Of a stretch of 44,869 nucleotides of DNA, positions 24,995 to 33,674 are shown one piece after another. The stretch's first letter is position 1. Each line of letters starts with the position of its first letter. The stretch comes from Syntrophomonadaceae bacterium (GTDB lineage Bacteria > Bacillota > DSM-12270 > Thermacetogeniales > Thermacetogeniaceae): the NCBI GenBank assembly GCA_012839645.1, contig DUMY01000086.1, positions 1 to 44,869 on the forward strand. The letters run 5' to 3'. Under the pieces are notes generated by a model that saw only the letters and a program-made list of their open reading frames with translations, made no database searches and was not told where the DNA came from. Made by a program: the position numbers and the translations under genes.

Positions 24995-25687
24995 CTACTT
25001 TACTTTATGCCACCAACTCCCGGCTGCTGCTTCCGCAGCTACAGCGCGGTAATCTTCCAAAGCTTTAGTCAGATCCTTCTCCTTTAACAGAGCGGAACCG
25101 ATGACAAGGGAATTTGCACCACAATCCACAGCTGCTTTTATGGTTGTGGTATTGATTCCACCATCTACCTGAAGGTCCGCATTCGACCCTGCATTGAGAA
25201 GCATCTTTCTTAACTCCTGAATCTTCCCGCATACAGCCGGGATAAATTCCTGACCACCCCAACCAGGATTGACTGTCATTAGCAAAACAACATCCAAATC
25301 CTGTACAATATACTCCAGAACACCCAGCGGGGTTGCCGGGTTCAAAGCCACCCCTGCTTTTAGCCCCATATCCTTGATTAACTGAACGGAGCGATGCAGA
25401 TGCGTACAGGTCTCGGAGTGAATGGTCAAACTCTTCACACCGGCTTCGGCAAAAGCTTTAAAATAATGTTCTGGGTTTTCTACCATCAGGTGAACATCAA
25501 GGGGAAGAGAAGTAATCTTGCGCAGTGAAGCCACAATCAATGGCCCAAATGTTAGATTTGGAACAAAATTCCCATCCATAATGTCCAGGTGGATGTCATC
25601 GGCCCCCCCACTTTCCAGTTTTTTAATCAGTGCTCCTAGATTGCTGAAATCTGCATTTAAAATAGAGGGGGCAATCTTAATGCTCAT
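24995..25687 (-). CDS. rpe: Ribulose-phosphate 3-epimerase
   Basis: 230 aa; KIAPSILNADFSNLG, HLDIMDGNFVPNLTFGP, VNPGWGGQEFIP. Confidence 0.97.
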   Translation of the reverse strand: MSIKIAPSILNADFSNLGALIKKLESGGADDIHLDIMDGNFVPNLTFGPLIVASLRKITSLPLDVHLMVENPEHYFKAFAEAGVKSLTIHSETCTHLHRSVQLIKDMGLKAGVALNPATPLGVLEYIVQDLDVVLLMTVNPGWGGQEFIPAVCGKIQELRKMLLNAGSNADLQVDGGINTTTIKAAVDCGANSLVIGSALLKEKDLTKALEDYRAVAAEAAAGSWWHKVK

Positions 25688-26556
25688 TAGTAAATTCGCT
25701 CCTTGCTGATAATCTCTTGTAGAAACTGCTTGTAGTCATTATAACGTGCACTGCTGATCAAGCCCTTGTCCAGAGCATTTTTCACTTCACAGTCAGGTTC
25801 TTCTAGGTGAATACAGTCATAAAAACGACATTGCGAGGCAAACTCATTTATTTCCGGAAAGCAACGGCTTAATTCCACCCTTTCCATTGAGGGCAGTTTT
25901 AAACTGCTGAAACCAGGTGTATCAGCGACGAATCCGTCACATAAGGGGATTAATTCCACATACCTGGTAGTATGTTTTCCTCTTTTCAGCTTCTTGCTTA
26001 TCTCCCCGGTTTCCAAAGACAGATTGGGATCCAGTGAGTTGAGCAGTGTAGACTTACCAACACCTGAGGGACCTGACAGAACCGATATCTTTCCAGCTAT
26101 AACCTGGCGTAATTTTTCCAGACCATATCCATAAAGAGCGGATGTGAAGATAGAATTGTAACCTGCCTTTCGATAAATATCCTCCAGATCTTTTGCCTGT
26201 TCTGGATCAAGCAAGTCTATTTTATTAAAACAGATAACAACACTTAGTTTCTCCAATTCGCATAATACCAAGGAACGGTTAAGAAGCTTGAGATCTGGAT
26301 CCGGATGGGCCAAGGAAACCACCGGAATTACCTGATCAACATTGGCTACAGGAGGGCGAGGTAGAGCGTTTTTTCGCTCTTTAATCTCTTCAATGACCCC
26401 CTCTCCTTTCTCAAGAGGTGTAAAAAGAACTCGGTCACCTGTTAATAGGTCCTGCGCCTGGCGCAGGCGACCACGCCCACGACAACACCAAGTTTCCACA
26501 CCTGACCTAACATAATAGAATCCCCCATAGCCCTTAATGATCAAACCTTCCCTCAC
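25687..26556 (-). CDS. rsgA: Ribosome small subunit-dependent GTPase A
   Basis: 289 aa; circularly permuted GTPase, CFNKIDLL, LSGPSGVGKSTLLNSL, DTPGFSS, Cys/His cluster. Confidence 0.96.
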   Translation of the reverse strand: MREGLIIKGYGGFYYVRSGVETWCCRGRGRLRQAQDLLTGDRVLFTPLEKGEGVIEEIKERKNALPRPPVANVDQVIPVVSLAHPDPDLKLLNRSLVLCELEKLSVVICFNKIDLLDPEQAKDLEDIYRKAGYNSIFTSALYGYGLEKLRQVIAGKISVLSGPSGVGKSTLLNSLDPNLSLETGEISKKLKRGKHTTRYVELIPLCDGFVADTPGFSSLKLPSMERVELSRCFPEINEFASQCRFYDCIHLEEPDCEVKNALDKGLISSARYNDYKQFLQEIISKERIY

Positions 26557-26578: not shown

Positions 26579-28420
26579 TTAAAATGGAATTGTCTTGTTG
26601 AGCCGCCCTTGGAAAAAGACCTGAAACTCCCCGGGTGGATAAACCTCAAAACTCTTTTCTATTTCATCGTCACCTTCGTGTGTCCCTTTATAGACCTCCC
26701 TGGTTCCCTGCGCATCTTTGACAACCACCCTTATTTCACCGGCTTCATCATCTGGGACTTCAATCTTTAATTTTCTTTCCTGCGATTTTAAGCCACCACT
26801 GGAGTCATCACTGGAGCCGCTGCTGACAACAACATCAATACTTCGTCCTTTTTTAACAGATGTTCCAGGAGCTACGCCCTGTTTTATTATAATACCCTTT
26901 TCCGTGCTGCTTGGTTCCTCCTTGACATCACCCAAATTCAACTCCACCGAACTCAGTGCTGCTTTTGCCTGATCCAATGTTAATCCTACCAGAGAAGGAA
27001 CAACGACATCTTTGGCAACTGGGCCGCTGCTCACAACCAGGGTAATCTCACTGCCCTTAGCTTGTTTTTGATCCCCCTCAGGAGACTGCCGTATCACATG
27101 CCCCGCAGGCACACTCTCATGATTCTCCCTAACTATTTTGACTACAAACCCTCGTCCCTCCAGAGCAAGCCGCGCTTCCCTCTCAGAGACCCCGGTAAGA
27201 TCGGGCAGCCAGACACTGCTCTGACCTTTATTTACCCAAATACGCACCAGACGACCCTTTTTGACTTCCATCCCACCAACAGGATCCTGGCGCACCACAA
27301 CTTCAACTTGCTCACCCTGATCAAAGATGTCCTCTACTTCTACCCTGAAACCCGCACTTTTAAGCTTCTCTGAAGCCTCATCTTGCGGCAACCCAACCAC
27401 ATCAGGTACAGCGACAGTGCCTCCAAAATACCACTTGGACAAGCCATAAAGCGCACCCCCAATAAGAAGTAAGCCGCAGACAACTAGCGCCGCTATTGCT
27501 GCAGGATGCATCTTTCTTTTCCTTGGAGCTTTTTTCTCCGGTATTACTGGGATAGGAATAGACCTGGTACGCTCCTCTTCCTGGGAATCAGAAGACTCAA
27601 CAGAATAGCCTTCAGATAGTGCATTCTGCATTTCTTTTGCAGATTTAAAGCGCATTCCCTTGTCCTTAGCCATTGCCTTATAAATAATCTGCTCCAATTC
27701 ATAGGGAATTGAAGGATTTTCAATGCGTAAACCAGGGGGTTCTTCCTGTATGTGCTTGAGAGCAATAGAAATGGGATTATCCCCTTGATAAGGTACATGC
27801 CCGGAAACAGCTTCATATAAAACAACCCCAAGAGAATAGAGGTCCGACTGAGAATCAGCATCCTCTCCCTGGGCTTGTTCCGGAGAGAAATAATGCACCG
27901 AACCCATCACTGTATCGGACTGGGTCACCGTAATACTGGAAACTGATAGAAAGCGTGCCAAGCCGAAATCCGTTACCTTGACCCTCCCCCCGGGTGTAAC
28001 CAGTATATTATGGGGCTTGATATCTCGATGAATAATTCCTTTACTGTGTGCGTGATCAAGAGCAGCACACACCTGAATACCGATATTCACTGCTTCCGAT
28101 GGGGAAAGCGCGCCCTGGCGTCGGATGATCTCTTTGAGATTGTCCCCTTCCACATATTCCATGACCAGGTAGGGCAGGCCGTCCTCCTCCCCCACATCGT
28201 AGATACTCACAATGTTAGGGTGTGATAAAAGAGCTACTGCCTGTGCCTCCATCTGAAAGCGGCGGACAAATTCCTTATCTTCTGCTAGTTCCTCACGCAT
28301 AATCTTAACAGTGACAATACGGTTCAATACAGTACAGCGAGCACGATAAACGTGAGCCATACCACCGGAACCGATCCTGGCTTTTATTTCATACCTGTTA
28401 CCCAATAATTGGCCGATCAT
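26579..28420 (-). CDS. prkC: PASTA-domain Ser/Thr protein kinase (PrkC/PknB family)
   Basis: 613 aa; IGSGGMAHVYRA, GIIHRDIKPHNILV, DFGLAR; TM segment; three PASTA repeats plus a C-terminal extra domain. Confidence 0.96.
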   Translation of the reverse strand: MIGQLLGNRYEIKARIGSGGMAHVYRARCTVLNRIVTVKIMREELAEDKEFVRRFQMEAQAVALLSHPNIVSIYDVGEEDGLPYLVMEYVEGDNLKEIIRRQGALSPSEAVNIGIQVCAALDHAHSKGIIHRDIKPHNILVTPGGRVKVTDFGLARFLSVSSITVTQSDTVMGSVHYFSPEQAQGEDADSQSDLYSLGVVLYEAVSGHVPYQGDNPISIALKHIQEEPPGLRIENPSIPYELEQIIYKAMAKDKGMRFKSAKEMQNALSEGYSVESSDSQEEERTRSIPIPVIPEKKAPRKRKMHPAAIAALVVCGLLLIGGALYGLSKWYFGGTVAVPDVVGLPQDEASEKLKSAGFRVEVEDIFDQGEQVEVVVRQDPVGGMEVKKGRLVRIWVNKGQSSVWLPDLTGVSEREARLALEGRGFVVKIVRENHESVPAGHVIRQSPEGDQKQAKGSEITLVVSSGPVAKDVVVPSLVGLTLDQAKAALSSVELNLGDVKEEPSSTEKGIIIKQGVAPGTSVKKGRSIDVVVSSGSSDDSSGGLKSQERKLKIEVPDDEAGEIRVVVKDAQGTREVYKGTHEGDDEIEKSFEVYPPGEFQVFFQGRLNKTIPF

Positions 28421-28422
28421 TA

Positions 28423-29823
28423 TTAACCCTCCCGCAATAGGGCAAGCCTCAATAGTTCTTTGGCGATAGGTGCCGCAGTTGTGCCGCCCTGTCCGCCATG
28501 TTCCACAATAACACTAACCGCAGCCCGGGGCTGTTCAGCAGGTGCAGAAGCCACAAACCAGGCATGAGTAGGACCTGAAGGGTTCTCTGCCGAACCCGTC
28601 TTTCCGGCCACATTAATTCCCGGCAGAGAAGCAGCGCTACCCGTTCCCCCAGATCGCACAACTCCCATCATTGCTTCCTGAACCTGCCATGCAGCTTCAG
28701 GCTCTGCAACCAACCTCAGTATACGCGGTCCCTGTTTCCAGACCACCCGGTCTTCAGGTGAGCGGATATCCTGTACAAGGTAGGGAGTCATCATGACCCC
28801 TTGATTGCCAATGGATCCGGCTATCAAAGCCATAAACAAGGGGCTTACTAATATTTCCCCCTGCCCCATAGCAGATTCCGCAAGAGCATTAGGGCTCTGC
28901 AAGCTGTCTTTCTTCAAAGGACTCCTCTCCACCGAAAGATCAAAGGGGATTTTCTCTCCCCAACCAAAATCCTTCAGGCCATTAGTAAAGTCCTCACTTC
29001 CGATATCCATACCTAAGTTTGCAAAATAACAATTACATGATAATGCCATTGCACGCTTCAAGTCCACACTACCATGAACCCGTAAATCGTGCAGAACCCT
29101 ACCCTGAATAGTTATCTCTCCCTGGCAGTTAAAGTACTCATTTCCTAACTGAGGAAATTTATCCAGCCCAACAGCAGCAGTAACGATTTTCATAACGGAT
29201 CCTGGGGGATATAATCCCTGAGAAGACCTATTAAGCAATGGATGCCCACTGTTTTGCCGCAGCTGGTCCCAGTTTTTTTCCAAGCTATCGTTGTTAGGAT
29301 CAAAACTGGGGGTGCTTACCATGGCTAGTATTTCACCATTTCTGGGATCCAGCACAACCGCTGCACCCTTGTAAGGGGACATCAATTCCCAGGCTTTCAA
29401 CTGAAGCTCATGATCAATGGTGAGATAAATATTCTCACCCTCAGTCCTATCTATGCCCCAGCGTGCTTCCAGGTTCCTTTTTGAATGACCATGTTGCCCC
29501 AGCAGTTCTTTATCGTAGGCCCTTTCCAGCCCTGTTTTTCCCAGACGTCTGGAGTGGTAGCCTGTTAAGTGAGCATACGGCAGTGGATAATAGTACTTTC
29601 TTGTTATCTTATCCCCTTCGATAGTGCTATCTGTAATTTTTTCTCCATTACGCGCATAAATTCCTCCCCGTACAACACGATTTTCTATAATCCAAGGTCT
29701 TGGATTAGCACCATGCTTACTTAGAGCAGGCCCCCGTACCATCACAAGATGAATGAGGTATCCTGCATAGATTAGAAAACAGACAGTTATAAAAACAAGA
29801 AACTTTTTAACTGTATCCTGCAT
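28423..29823 (-). CDS. Penicillin-binding transpeptidase (PbpA/FtsI-like)
   Basis: 466 aa; YPPGSVMKIV (SxxK), ALSCNCYFA (SxN), VAGKTGSAENP (KTG). Confidence 0.94.
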   Translation of the reverse strand: MQDTVKKFLVFITVCFLIYAGYLIHLVMVRGPALSKHGANPRPWIIENRVVRGGIYARNGEKITDSTIEGDKITRKYYYPLPYAHLTGYHSRRLGKTGLERAYDKELLGQHGHSKRNLEARWGIDRTEGENIYLTIDHELQLKAWELMSPYKGAAVVLDPRNGEILAMVSTPSFDPNNDSLEKNWDQLRQNSGHPLLNRSSQGLYPPGSVMKIVTAAVGLDKFPQLGNEYFNCQGEITIQGRVLHDLRVHGSVDLKRAMALSCNCYFANLGMDIGSEDFTNGLKDFGWGEKIPFDLSVERSPLKKDSLQSPNALAESAMGQGEILVSPLFMALIAGSIGNQGVMMTPYLVQDIRSPEDRVVWKQGPRILRLVAEPEAAWQVQEAMMGVVRSGGTGSAASLPGINVAGKTGSAENPSGPTHAWFVASAPAEQPRAAVSVIVEHGGQGGTTAAPIAKELLRLALLREG

Positions 29824-29839: not shown

Positions 29840-31537
29840 CTAGCGATCCATCATAACAGCCCTCATAGATGCTTCCTGCTCATCTATATCTCTCTCACTT
29901 TCCACACTGACTTTATAGAGAATTCCCATCAAAAAACAGTTGGAAACAAAAGAACTACCCCCATAACTCAAAAAGGGCAGGGGAATACCAGTAAGTGGTA
30001 TCACACTGATCACCCCGCCGATAATTATAAGTGTCTGTAAAGCCAGAATAGAACTAAACCCACATGCCAGAAGGGCACCAAAACCATCATGGGCATTAAG
30101 GGAAATCTGAAAGCCCTTCCAAATCAACAAATAGTATATCCCTAATATTCCCAGGACTCCCAACAGCCCCAACTCTTCTCCGATGAGAGAAAAGATAAAG
30201 TCGGTATGCACTGCAGGTATTAATTTTGGAAAACCGCTGCCCAACCCCTGTCCGAAAATGCCTCCACCGCTGATAGCAAACAGCGATTGAATAACCTGAT
30301 AACCTCCCCCGTCAAGCTGCTGCCAGGGATCCATATAGATAAGCATCCTGCTCTGAACATGGGGAAAAATATAGTACATTAAAACGGCACCCACTGAAAA
30401 GAGTCCTAATCCCAGCAAGAGAAAATAAGAGCGCTCTGTAGCAATATAGACCATCACAAGAAAAGTTGCAAAAAATAGGAGGGCCATCCCCAAATCCTTT
30501 TGAAAAACCAGGAGAAGCAAAGAAAAACCACAGATCACCAGTAGAGGTCCCAGATAAGGCCAATCCGGAAGATAAAAACGTCCAAACTTGAGGGTCCCTA
30601 CCCGGAGAATCTCCTTGTTTTCCTCTAAATAACCCGCCAGGAAGATCACCATAAAGATCTTAACAAACTCTGAAGCCTGAAAACGAAAAGAACCGAGAGA
30701 AAGCCACCTGTTTGCGCCTCCCGCTTCCACCCCGAAGACAATGGTAAAGACAAGAAAGACAATACTCAAAACCATAAAGATGTATTTATAATCAAGCAGG
30801 CGCCTGTATTCAGACAGAAATATCTGAATCAACCAAAAGAGGGAGTACCCTGCCATCACCCAGTAAACTTGGCGTGATCCATAATAGGGATCAACCCTGT
30901 AAATAAAAACCAAACCTAAAGCTGACAGCACCCCTACTAAATGTATAAGCAAGGGGGCACCTTTTTCCTTGTATTCAGCTATAAAAGAACTGACCACCAA
31001 TAACAGGGCAGCCACAGCCAATAGAGTGATATCCTGAACACCCAGCAGTTGTTCTCTGTACAACTCCAGGCTGCCTGCACCAAGGATCAAACCAGGAAAA
31101 AGTGGCAAAAGAAAAGACCTATCGGCTTTGCTCTGCTCCGGCAACTCAGCTTTTAATGTGAATCCCCCAATTTGAAGTTGTGACCCATTCCGAAGAATTT
31201 GCGGTGTTGTAAGGGGGTGATTTTCAAGAAGTGTTCCATTGGTGCTGCCCATATCAGTGACATAATATCTGTTATCTTGCAAAATAATACGGGCATGCCT
31301 ATTGGAAACATAGGGGTCCGGAAGACTTACTGCACACTCACTGCTTCTTCCCAGAACTACCCCTTTATCTATAACCCATCTCTTTCCCTCAGGTACTGCC
31401 GCTGACGCTGAACGAAGCACCAAAAGGGCAGCCTTATTTATTTTATCACCTGTTCTGCTGTTAACAAAAACAACCATAACAAAAAGACAGATAAGCAGCA
31501 GTATCAGGTACTTAAGAGCTATAACCACCCAAATCAC
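29840..31537 (-). CDS. N-terminal TM + FHA domain fused to FtsW/RodA/SpoVE SEDS glycosyltransferase
   Basis: 565 aa single ORF; FHA motif VLGRSSECAVSLPDPYVSNRHARI...MGSTNGTLLEN, then ANRWLSLGSFRFQASEFVK and PLTGIPLPFLSYGGSS. Confidence 0.93.
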   Translation of the reverse strand: MIWVVIALKYLILLLICLFVMVVFVNSRTGDKINKAALLVLRSASAAVPEGKRWVIDKGVVLGRSSECAVSLPDPYVSNRHARIILQDNRYYVTDMGSTNGTLLENHPLTTPQILRNGSQLQIGGFTLKAELPEQSKADRSFLLPLFPGLILGAGSLELYREQLLGVQDITLLAVAALLLVVSSFIAEYKEKGAPLLIHLVGVLSALGLVFIYRVDPYYGSRQVYWVMAGYSLFWLIQIFLSEYRRLLDYKYIFMVLSIVFLVFTIVFGVEAGGANRWLSLGSFRFQASEFVKIFMVIFLAGYLEENKEILRVGTLKFGRFYLPDWPYLGPLLVICGFSLLLLVFQKDLGMALLFFATFLVMVYIATERSYFLLLGLGLFSVGAVLMYYIFPHVQSRMLIYMDPWQQLDGGGYQVIQSLFAISGGGIFGQGLGSGFPKLIPAVHTDFIFSLIGEELGLLGVLGILGIYYLLIWKGFQISLNAHDGFGALLACGFSSILALQTLIIIGGVISVIPLTGIPLPFLSYGGSSFVSNCFLMGILYKVSVESERDIDEQEASMRAVMMDR

Positions 31538-31540
31538 GGT

Positions 31541-32281
31541 TTAACTCCCTTCAACTTTAAACAGATTCTCACCAATCAAGAATTGATCCCCGACCTCCAG
31601 TTCGCACTGTTCTATACGGATTCCATCAACATAAGTCCCATTCTTGCTCCCCATATCGATCAAGCTTAGAATATCGCCACGTTTTTCCAGCCTGACATGC
31701 TCCCGGGAGGCGTTGATATCTGAGAGCACCAGGTGGTTTGTGCTCTTGCGACCGATATAGTATGACTCTTCCCCCTGCAGCAAAATGCTCTTTCCTTGGT
31801 CGGGACCGCTCATGACAATTATAGAGTATTTTTTACCATCAAATCCGCTTTCCTTCTCCTTTTTATCAAAAATCATGGTTTGGTCCATTTTTACTGATTC
31901 TTTCTGAGGCAATGGCTCTTCAGAAGTAAAGGCGGACTTGATCGCAATCTCCCCAATTTCCAGAGACTCATCCTCCAAAAAGGCAACCTGCGGCCTTCCA
32001 ATCAGAGTGTATTCTTTTTCTACTGCTTTGTTTTTAATATACTCAGCCAGCTCCTGACTGAGCGCATCATGTAGTGGAGAACTCTTCTGGAAATCCGCAT
32101 TTCCCAGACTAATTGTAAAAATATTGGGGGTATAGACCCGGGAAACGCTCACCCGTCTCTGGACAACCATCTCCCTCACTAATGCCCTGGCCATTTCTAC
32201 CGGCTGAATTGGCCGCTTCCGCTTACGAAAAATACCCTCCCAAAATTTTGTTATCATGCTTTCCAGATCATCTAAATTCAC
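31541..32281 (-). CDS. FhaA-like protein: DUF3662 N-terminus + C-terminal FHA
   Basis: 246 aa; EMARALVREMVVQRRVSVSRVYTPNIFTI...; YYIGRKSTNHLVLSDINASREHVRLEKRG...DMGSKNGTYVDG. Confidence 0.9.
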   Translation of the reverse strand: MNLDDLESMITKFWEGIFRKRKRPIQPVEMARALVREMVVQRRVSVSRVYTPNIFTISLGNADFQKSSPLHDALSQELAEYIKNKAVEKEYTLIGRPQVAFLEDESLEIGEIAIKSAFTSEEPLPQKESVKMDQTMIFDKKEKESGFDGKKYSIIVMSGPDQGKSILLQGEESYYIGRKSTNHLVLSDINASREHVRLEKRGDILSLIDMGSKNGTYVDGIRIEQCELEVGDQFLIGENLFKVEGS

Positions 32282-32285
32282 GGTT

Positions 32286-33674
32286 TCACCTGCTCTCCTT
32301 GGTTTTTCTTAAACAAGCCAGGAAAAACCCATCAGTACCATGCTGATGTGGCAGCAACTGTAGAAAACCTTTTTTTACATCTATTTTATCACGACTATTA
32401 ACTAATGGAAACGGCAGTCTTAGTTCCTCACTTTTAAATCCAGTGTATTCCATTAAAAAAGAGTTCACAACCCCTATATTTTCCTCGGGCTCCGTAGAAC
32501 AGGTGCTGTAGAGTAATAGTCCTCCTGTCTTCAGACATTTACTCGCCTGTCCCAGGATCTCCATCTGTTGTACGGCATGTCGTGATAAGTCACCACGCTC
32601 CACCCGCCATCTCAGCTCGGGTCGCCTGCGGATCACACCCAGACCGGAACATGGCACATCAACCAAAATATAATCAGCTCTTTCACTTAATTTATTAGGT
32701 AGTTCTCTGGCATCCAGATGCCTTGTTTTAACAATGGTCATCCCTAACCTCCTGCAGGCACCATCAACCAGTTTCAGGCGGTGTTCGTGAACATCAAGAG
32801 CTAAAATCCTCCCCCTGTTCTTCATCAACTGGGCAAGGTGTGTTGTCTTGCCGCCCGGTCCACTGCAGGCATCAATAACAAATGCACCTGGAACAGGATT
32901 CAAAACAGAGGAGGCGATCATCGAACTCTCATCTTGCACAGCATAATACCCATCCCGAAAAGATTTCAATTCCGGCAGAAAAGATCTCTTCTCCACAATG
33001 ATTCCTTCAGGGACCAGAGCGCTAGGGCGAACCTTCAGACCCTCTTCTTTAAGCTTCTTCCGGAGATGACCCGGAGTAGTTTTTAAAGTATTGCAACGCA
33101 GCACAACAGGTGGTGGCTCATTATTGACGGCGCAAAGCGATGCGGTTTCTTCTTTTCCAAATCGCATCAACCAGCGTTCCACCAGCCATAAAGGATGTGA
33201 GTACTTTATGCTTAAATAGAGTGCGAGCTCTTTATCCGGATCCGGATAAGAAATACTGTCCTTACTACGACTGATACTGCGCAGCAAGGCATTTACAAAG
33301 CCCGACAATCCGTGAATTCCTCGGCTTTTTGCCAGTTCCACTGCTTCACTGCAAGCAGCCCTAGAAGGAACCCTGTCCAGATATAAAAGTTGATATACTC
33401 CCATCCGTATAATGGTGCGGATGGTATAATTCATCTTGGAAACAGGTACCGTGCTGTACTGCTCAATCACCCAATCCAAGGTACCCTGTCTGCGGAGAGT
33501 TCCGTATACTAACTCCGTTAACAGCGCCATATCGCTGTGCCCCAGTTTCAATGTTCTGGTAAGCTTCCGCAGCTCCAGGTTGGCATAAGCGCCATCCTTC
33601 TCTACAGCTAAGAGCACCCGCAGTGCTGCCTTCCTAGCCGGAGAAACCTTAGATCCACTCAATATTACAACCAC
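32286..33674 (-). CDS. rsmB: 16S rRNA (cytosine967-C5)-methyltransferase RsmB
   Basis: 462 aa; NusB-like N-terminus; DACSGPGGKTTHLAQ, VDVPCSGLGVIRRRPELRW. Confidence 0.96.
   Translation of the reverse strand: MVVILSGSKVSPARKAALRVLLAVEKDGAYANLELRKLTRTLKLGHSDMALLTELVYGTLRRQGTLDWVIEQYSTVPVSKMNYTIRTIIRMGVYQLLYLDRVPSRAACSEAVELAKSRGIHGLSGFVNALLRSISRSKDSISYPDPDKELALYLSIKYSHPLWLVERWLMRFGKEETASLCAVNNEPPPVVLRCNTLKTTPGHLRKKLKEEGLKVRPSALVPEGIIVEKRSFLPELKSFRDGYYAVQDESSMIASSVLNPVPGAFVIDACSGPGGKTTHLAQLMKNRGRILALDVHEHRLKLVDGACRRLGMTIVKTRHLDARELPNKLSERADYILVDVPCSGLGVIRRRPELRWRVERGDLSRHAVQQMEILGQASKCLKTGGLLLYSTCSTEPEENIGVVNSFLMEYTGFKSEELRLPFPLVNSRDKIDVKKGFLQLLPHQHGTDGFFLACLRKTKESR

Follow-up and report, generated by a model that had tools for sequence, protein, structure and literature searches.

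A FhaB-type protein, with a transmembrane helix and an FHA domain, and a SEDS polymerase were found to be encoded as one protein within a PASTA kinase gene cluster from a Syntrophomonadaceae bacterium, in a stretch of DNA of 44,869 nucleotides (contig DUMY01000086.1, referred to here as the window; all coordinates are positions in it and all genes described from it lie on the (-) strand). The most informative fact about this fusion locus is that the cognate PP2C phosphatase gene has been lost, and the loss of stp and the fusion of its neighbours are linked both in position and in lineage. The parts and the locus are already known; for the covalent reader-polymerase arrangement and the matching phosphatase loss, no report was found in the open-access literature, to which the search was confined and in which the single match for FHA-FtsW/RodA fusions was a general review. 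The fusion bears on the way in which PASTA kinases direct wall-building SEDS polymerases: in pneumococcus, recruitment of FtsW and PBPs by the kinase juxtamembrane region has no known reader domain (PMC12077195). A natural and conserved reader-polymerase fusion names a pair of interest and predicts contact between FhaB and RodA where their genes are separate, and the matching phosphatase loss raises the question of how PASTA signalling proceeds without its usual eraser.

An FHA domain and a SEDS polymerase in one open reading frame

The fusion gene (29840-31537) is a single ORF of 565 amino acids with no internal stops, and it begins with a GTG codon 3 bp past the end of fhaA, with GGGAG a few bases upstream. 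The preliminary description of this DNA had read the ORF as a transmembrane segment, an FHA domain and a complete SEDS polymerase, and Pfam, AlphaFold2 and Foldseek all agree with that reading. The FHA domain (residues 60-124; 31166-31360) matches PF00498 with an E-value of 3.8e-19 (69.3 bits against a gathering score of 20.7), and the SEDS polymerase (residues 144-547; 29897-31108) matches FTSW_RODA_SPOVE (PF01098) over residues 200-547 (29897-30940; E-value 4.1e-81, 273 bits against 26.4). The AlphaFold2 model (pLDDT 74) has a helix at residues 11-31, FHA strands between 37 and 131 and then some 12 membrane helices, and with this model Foldseek returned RodA/FtsW structures (6pl5, 6pl6 and 8bh1) as well as the FHA proteins GarA (6i2p/7rj3) and FhaA (3poa/3oun). 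The first helix (annotated as residues 10-31; 31445-31510) is also visible in the sequence and corresponds, in alignments, to the first helix of FhaB proteins that have a gene of their own; because positive residues come after it, the FHA domain is predicted to lie on the cytoplasmic side, as is the SEDS N-terminus. For M. tuberculosis, 12 membrane helices are given for RodA and a single one for FhaB (PMC8093794), numbers that agree with the two having been joined directly, end to end. Judging from the gene order of relatives, the joint would be a short linker (residues 132-143; 31109-31144), placed where they carry stp and poorly predicted in the model, with low pLDDT at residues 134-139.

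The polymerase half has the fold and catalytic Asp motif of RodA/FtsW SEDS proteins (6pl5, 8bh1, 8tj3), with D446, in an HTDF motif, aligning with D255 of T. thermophilus RodA, and both D446 and a SYGGSS motif are invariant in 13 of 13 aligned fusion-family sequences. Unlike those proteins it has a TM-FHA segment in front and falls below the curated equivalog cut-offs for FtsW (TIGR02614, 269.8 of 337.5 bits), RodA (TIGR02210, 240.8 of 336.7 bits) and SpoVE (TIGR02615, 241.3 of 448.8 bits). Separate FtsW/SpoVE and RodA genes that do pass the SpoVE/FtsW and RodA cut-offs are present in the source genome, and the fusion SEDS is the third, kinase-locus type of its three SEDS genes, being approximately 39-53% identical to the SEDS proteins of unfused Bacillota clusters. 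The N-terminal half has the helix followed by one FHA domain that is found in FhaB/FipA (NF049868, Rv0019c), to which the fusion adds SEDS, but it scores 75.1 bits (86.5 for the T. phaeum protein) where the cut-off is 125; its likeness to FhaB/FipA is one of architecture and synteny. The main functional study of mycobacterial FhaB/FipA, on FtsZ binding, has been retracted (PMC8870568).

The fusion family, f1, corresponds to Syntrophaceticus/Thermacetogenium and comprised 20 genomes; the closest named relatives of the source genome are Syntrophaceticus schinkii (87%) and Thermacetogenium MAGs (78%), together with other MAGs labelled Syntrophomonadaceae, Peptococcaceae or Clostridia. The preliminary description had allowed that a frameshift or an assembly join of two ORFs might explain the fusion. 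The same single ORF is present in 18 of the 20 genomes, including that of T. phaeum (G007), whose chromosome is closed (2,939,057 bp; PMC3551663), a ribosome-binding sequence precedes the start, and none of 12 aligned FHA-bearing fusions has a stop codon in the linker, so that a frameshift, misassembly or wrong start joining two genes can for practical purposes be dismissed. In G010 the two halves of the fusion lie at the ends of two contigs, while G006 encodes a SEDS protein with a FhaB-like N-terminal helix and no FHA domain. In this last genome (Thermoanaerobacterales bacterium 50_218; L042:9605-10939) the FhaB helix is joined straight to SEDS, a natural FHA deletion. G006 is the deepest branch of f1 (SH-aLRT 83 in a tree built from six genes of the neighbourhood, concatenated), and since the FhaB helix is retained, secondary loss of the FHA domain seems the simpler reading, which would make the reader dispensable in at least one lineage. 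The SEDS halves of the fusions form one clade (support 100/99; one outgroup row of this tree was a wrong ORF, MurD from L001, a fault that should leave the fused clade untouched), as would be expected if the fusion arose once, and no uninterrupted FHA-SEDS fusion outside f1 was among the matches listed for a sample of 399 Bacillota genomes.

The FHA profile match, the beta-sandwich and the GR...SxxH...NG contact residues are all present in the fusion. The phosphothreonine contact residues R64, S78 and N100 and the structural H81 align with the contact residues of GarA and are near-invariant across the FHA-bearing fusions, which speaks against the loss of binding residues that had been considered as a case against tethering. 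Pairwise dN/dS, estimated from four sequence pairs in one of which dS was high, was about 0.08-0.17 for the FHA segment and 0.06-0.15 for the SEDS segment, values that suggest purifying selection on the former. Binding by FHA domains can be independent of phosphate, and this together with the FHA-less protein of G006 could be taken to mean that the domain serves the polymerase as a structural or dimerising element, or as an intramolecular lock, irrespective of phosphorylation; for a structural role alone the four conserved residues would not be needed, and we consider this reading highly improbable. Given the fusion, its presence on a closed chromosome, the retained contact residues and the purifying selection, tethering of the polymerase to a phosphothreonine would therefore be the natural reading, with the ligand putative.

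The kinase cluster and the loss of stp

The fusion locus has fhaA, fhaB, SEDS, pbpA and a PASTA kinase gene within one cluster, in the order of the known FhaA/FhaB/PstP/RodA/PbpA/PknB module. Upstream are rsmB (32286-33674, assigned by synteny) and fhaA (31541-32281), which encodes an FhaA_N domain (PF12401) and a second FHA domain (PF00498). This is the only other FHA domain of the source genome (a 2.19 Mb draft in 291 contigs, 95.5% complete), so that both FHA domains found in a genome-wide census lie within the fusion operon. Downstream are pbpA (28423-29823; Pfam Transpeptidase and PBP_dimer_2), a class B penicillin-binding protein gene whose product is the presumed partner of the SEDS polymerase, prkC (26579-28420), for the PASTA Ser/Thr kinase (NF033483, 594 bits against a cut-off of 450), and rsgA (25687-26556), the conserved downstream gene of the cluster by synteny in the f1 loci. 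PrkC has three PASTA repeats, retains by alignment the catalytic HRD/DFG motifs and the activation-loop Thr, and carries the juxtamembrane sequence EERTRSIP; kinases of the fusion family in general keep the catalytic and activation-loop residues in alignment, and each of the 61 genomes in the relatives set had a PASTA kinase. Five genomes (G005, G007, G008, G013 and G016) have, outside the cluster, a second PASTA-kinase-like kinase of 530-574 amino acids with weak PASTA-region scores.

The gene set and order are shared with the actinobacterial cluster fhaA-fhaB-pstP-rodA-pbpA-pknA-pknB (M. tuberculosis Rv0020c-Rv0014c), including FhaA, the TM-FHA protein FhaB, a RodA-type SEDS, PbpA and a PASTA kinase. 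In f1, unlike the actinobacterial cluster, fhaB and SEDS are one ORF, the cluster has a single kinase gene, and pstP/stp is absent both at the locus and in almost every genome of the family. Mycobacterial FhaB and RodA had been described beforehand as separate neighbours, and they are indeed encoded by separate genes of the same cluster but are not adjacent, pstP lying in between (PMC6554272). The simplest source for the fusion is the arrangement of the unfused clusters in other Bacillota families (for example L043, L046-L048, L050, L055 and L056), in which the order is rlmN-fhaA-fhaB-stp-SEDS-pbpA-prkC-rsgA-rpe and fhaB, stp and SEDS are three genes. The f1 loci differ in that stp and rlmN are both missing; in the window, rlmN is absent from between rsmB and fhaA, where relatives have it (by synteny, and by the Pfam identity of RlmN in one relative). 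Genome-wide, RlmN, a 23S rRNA/tRNA methyltransferase, gave no match in 6 of 8 f1 genomes tested, a match below the cut-off in G006 and a full match elsewhere in G004.

No PP2C phosphatase of the PstP/Stp type was found in the fusion locus or in the source genome, where one weak PP2C match was considered as a possible Stp and rejected, being located in what its sequence indicates is a SpoIIE-like protein. In the relatives set, Stp (NF033484) had no match in 18 of the 20 f1 genomes and was present in all 41 genomes of other families, so that relocation of the gene can be rejected for those 18. The exceptions within f1 are G003, with fragments of Stp, and G008, with three copies, and the PP2C matches of these two genomes mostly share their contigs with other kinases (G003:C40 and C42; G008:C34 and C5). 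In the wider sample of 399 genomes Stp was missing from 14 of 15 f1 genomes compared to 6 of 384 others, several of these six being incomplete drafts. As loss and fusion amount to a single event, or to a small number of events on the same branch, the association between them counts once and not twenty times. The gene was lost from between fhaB and the SEDS gene and therefore the fusion sits where stp was.

Our preferred explanation, which we hold to be somewhat more probable than not, is that the fusion arose once, in the ancestor of f1, when stp was lost and the frames on either side of it, those of fhaB and of the RodA-type SEDS gene of the kinase locus, were joined, and that the FHA domain of the product anchors the SEDS-PbpA synthase to phosphothreonines made by the adjacent PrkC. 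The fusion product would combine in one chain a peptidoglycan polymerase and, on the cytoplasmic side, a reader of phosphothreonine; the docking mark might be in the juxtamembrane part of PrkC itself or on a different substrate, for example FhaA, docking would place or activate wall synthesis where PrkC senses wall precursors, and, going by the search for PP2C folds, no dedicated phosphatase would reverse the mark. The fusion, its conservation, the stp loss and the integrity of the reader, polymerase and kinase are observed, whereas what the ligand is, how the synthase is recruited and how its activity is affected are inferred. It is also conceivable, if rather unlikely, that the fusion is a neutral scar: a complex of FhaB and RodA would already have existed, and deletion of stp would have fused the two without a new function, the FHA domain acting as FhaB does elsewhere. 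The location of the fusion exactly at the lost stp agrees with this, as do the fusion of other neighbouring genes of the cluster elsewhere (SEDS with PBP, in several families) and the occurrence, in families f27, f31, f37, f65, f100 and f137, of fhaB immediately before the SEDS gene with no stp between them; against it, the fusion is kept in nearly all of f1, down to about 52% identity, with its FHA residues conserved. A neutral scar and docking on PrkC marks are not strictly contradictory.

Candidate ligands of the FHA domain

The candidate ligand on the kinase is the juxtamembrane Thr of EERTRSIP in the PrkC of the window and its equivalents in related kinases, T-x-x-L/I/M being an FHA-like ligand pattern. 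The motif was found in 28 of 32 genomes that have FHA proteins, where shuffled sequence would lead one to expect 17%, and in 6 of 11 that have none; the difference between the two sets gave P = 0.03, with the pattern chosen post hoc and descent uncorrected. Within f1 it is kept in 12 of the 14 kinases tested and absent from G008 and G013, both of which bear the fusion. Many PASTA kinases of Bacillota, some of them in FHA-less genomes, share a conserved juxtamembrane T-[RQ]-x-[LIM] pattern (residues about 284-293 in the PrkC of the window). The preliminary description had suggested that the fusion tethers the polymerase to phosphothreonine on the adjacent kinase or another client, and of this the phosphothreonine tether gains from the retained contact residues and purifying selection, but the juxtamembrane Thr is not upheld as a fusion-specific ligand, since FHA-less genomes have the motif and G008 and G013 do not. 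The motif is thus a candidate and a lead, not a result, and its absence from those two genomes, together with the FHA-less protein of G006, counts against the docking explanation.

In M. tuberculosis, the juxtamembrane domain of PknB recruits FhaA, according to Roumestand 2011 as cited in PMC6180346 and PMC12077195, and the FHA domain of FhaA binds phospho-CwlM and the phosphorylated pseudokinase domain of MurJ (PMC6180346). A phosphomimetic juxtamembrane domain of the pneumococcal kinase StkP recruits FtsW and PBPs, although FHA domains are absent from streptococci (PMC12077195). The recruitment of FhaA by PknB and that of FtsW and PBPs by StkP count in favour of docking on PrkC; FhaA, which is still present in the fusion cluster with an FHA domain of its own, could be the main reader of the kinase, and this counts against it. 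The FHA domain of the fusion may instead read a client other than the kinase, such as phosphorylated FhaA, PbpA, MurJ or a CwlM/IreB-like regulator, which would couple polymerisation to precursor supply rather than to the position of the kinase. The mycobacterial FhaA interactions and the two f1 members that retain the fusion without the juxtamembrane motif both favour such a client, which is putative here, while the motif is kept in 12 of 14 f1 kinases; we regard this alternative as doubtful. Returning to docking on marks written by PrkC, a bolder extension, which we advance tentatively as possible, is that f1 represents a writer and reader without an eraser, in which the kinase signal would be a stable docking mark and not a reversible switch, and that FhaB elsewhere, mycobacteria included, would by extension be a partner of RodA.

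Other arrangements of the cluster genes in Bacillota

Adjacent genes of the cluster are also joined in families f55, f117, f121 and f124, where SEDS and a class B PBP are encoded in one ORF of 837-912 amino acids at the kinase locus (L241:1523-4147, L242:1417-4155, L244:2625-5210, L252:2513-5035, L253:1637-4174, L254:974-3559 and L255:2623-5136). These fusions join the polymerase to a transpeptidase, whereas that of f1 joins it to a phospho-reader. One of these loci, L241, is from a genome outside f1 that is 99% complete (G296) and gave no Stp match; its kinase locus, which bears the SEDS-PBP fusion, likewise lacks fhaA and fhaB. At L243:1690-4128, in G219, a PP2C phosphatase and SEDS are in one ORF of 812 amino acids, the genes being separate in sibling genomes, so that either a fusion of local origin or a frameshift may account for it. 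A triple FHA-Stp-SEDS fusion was considered for this ORF and rejected, as no FHA domain was found in it and the N-terminal 141 residues seem to be translated from the wrong frame. An fhaB-SEDS-pbpA trio without an adjacent kinase or phosphatase gene was seen at L239 (G242), L238 (G212), L240 (G367), L054 (G045) and L058 (G055), and at L239 the trio sits between uvrA and uvrC.
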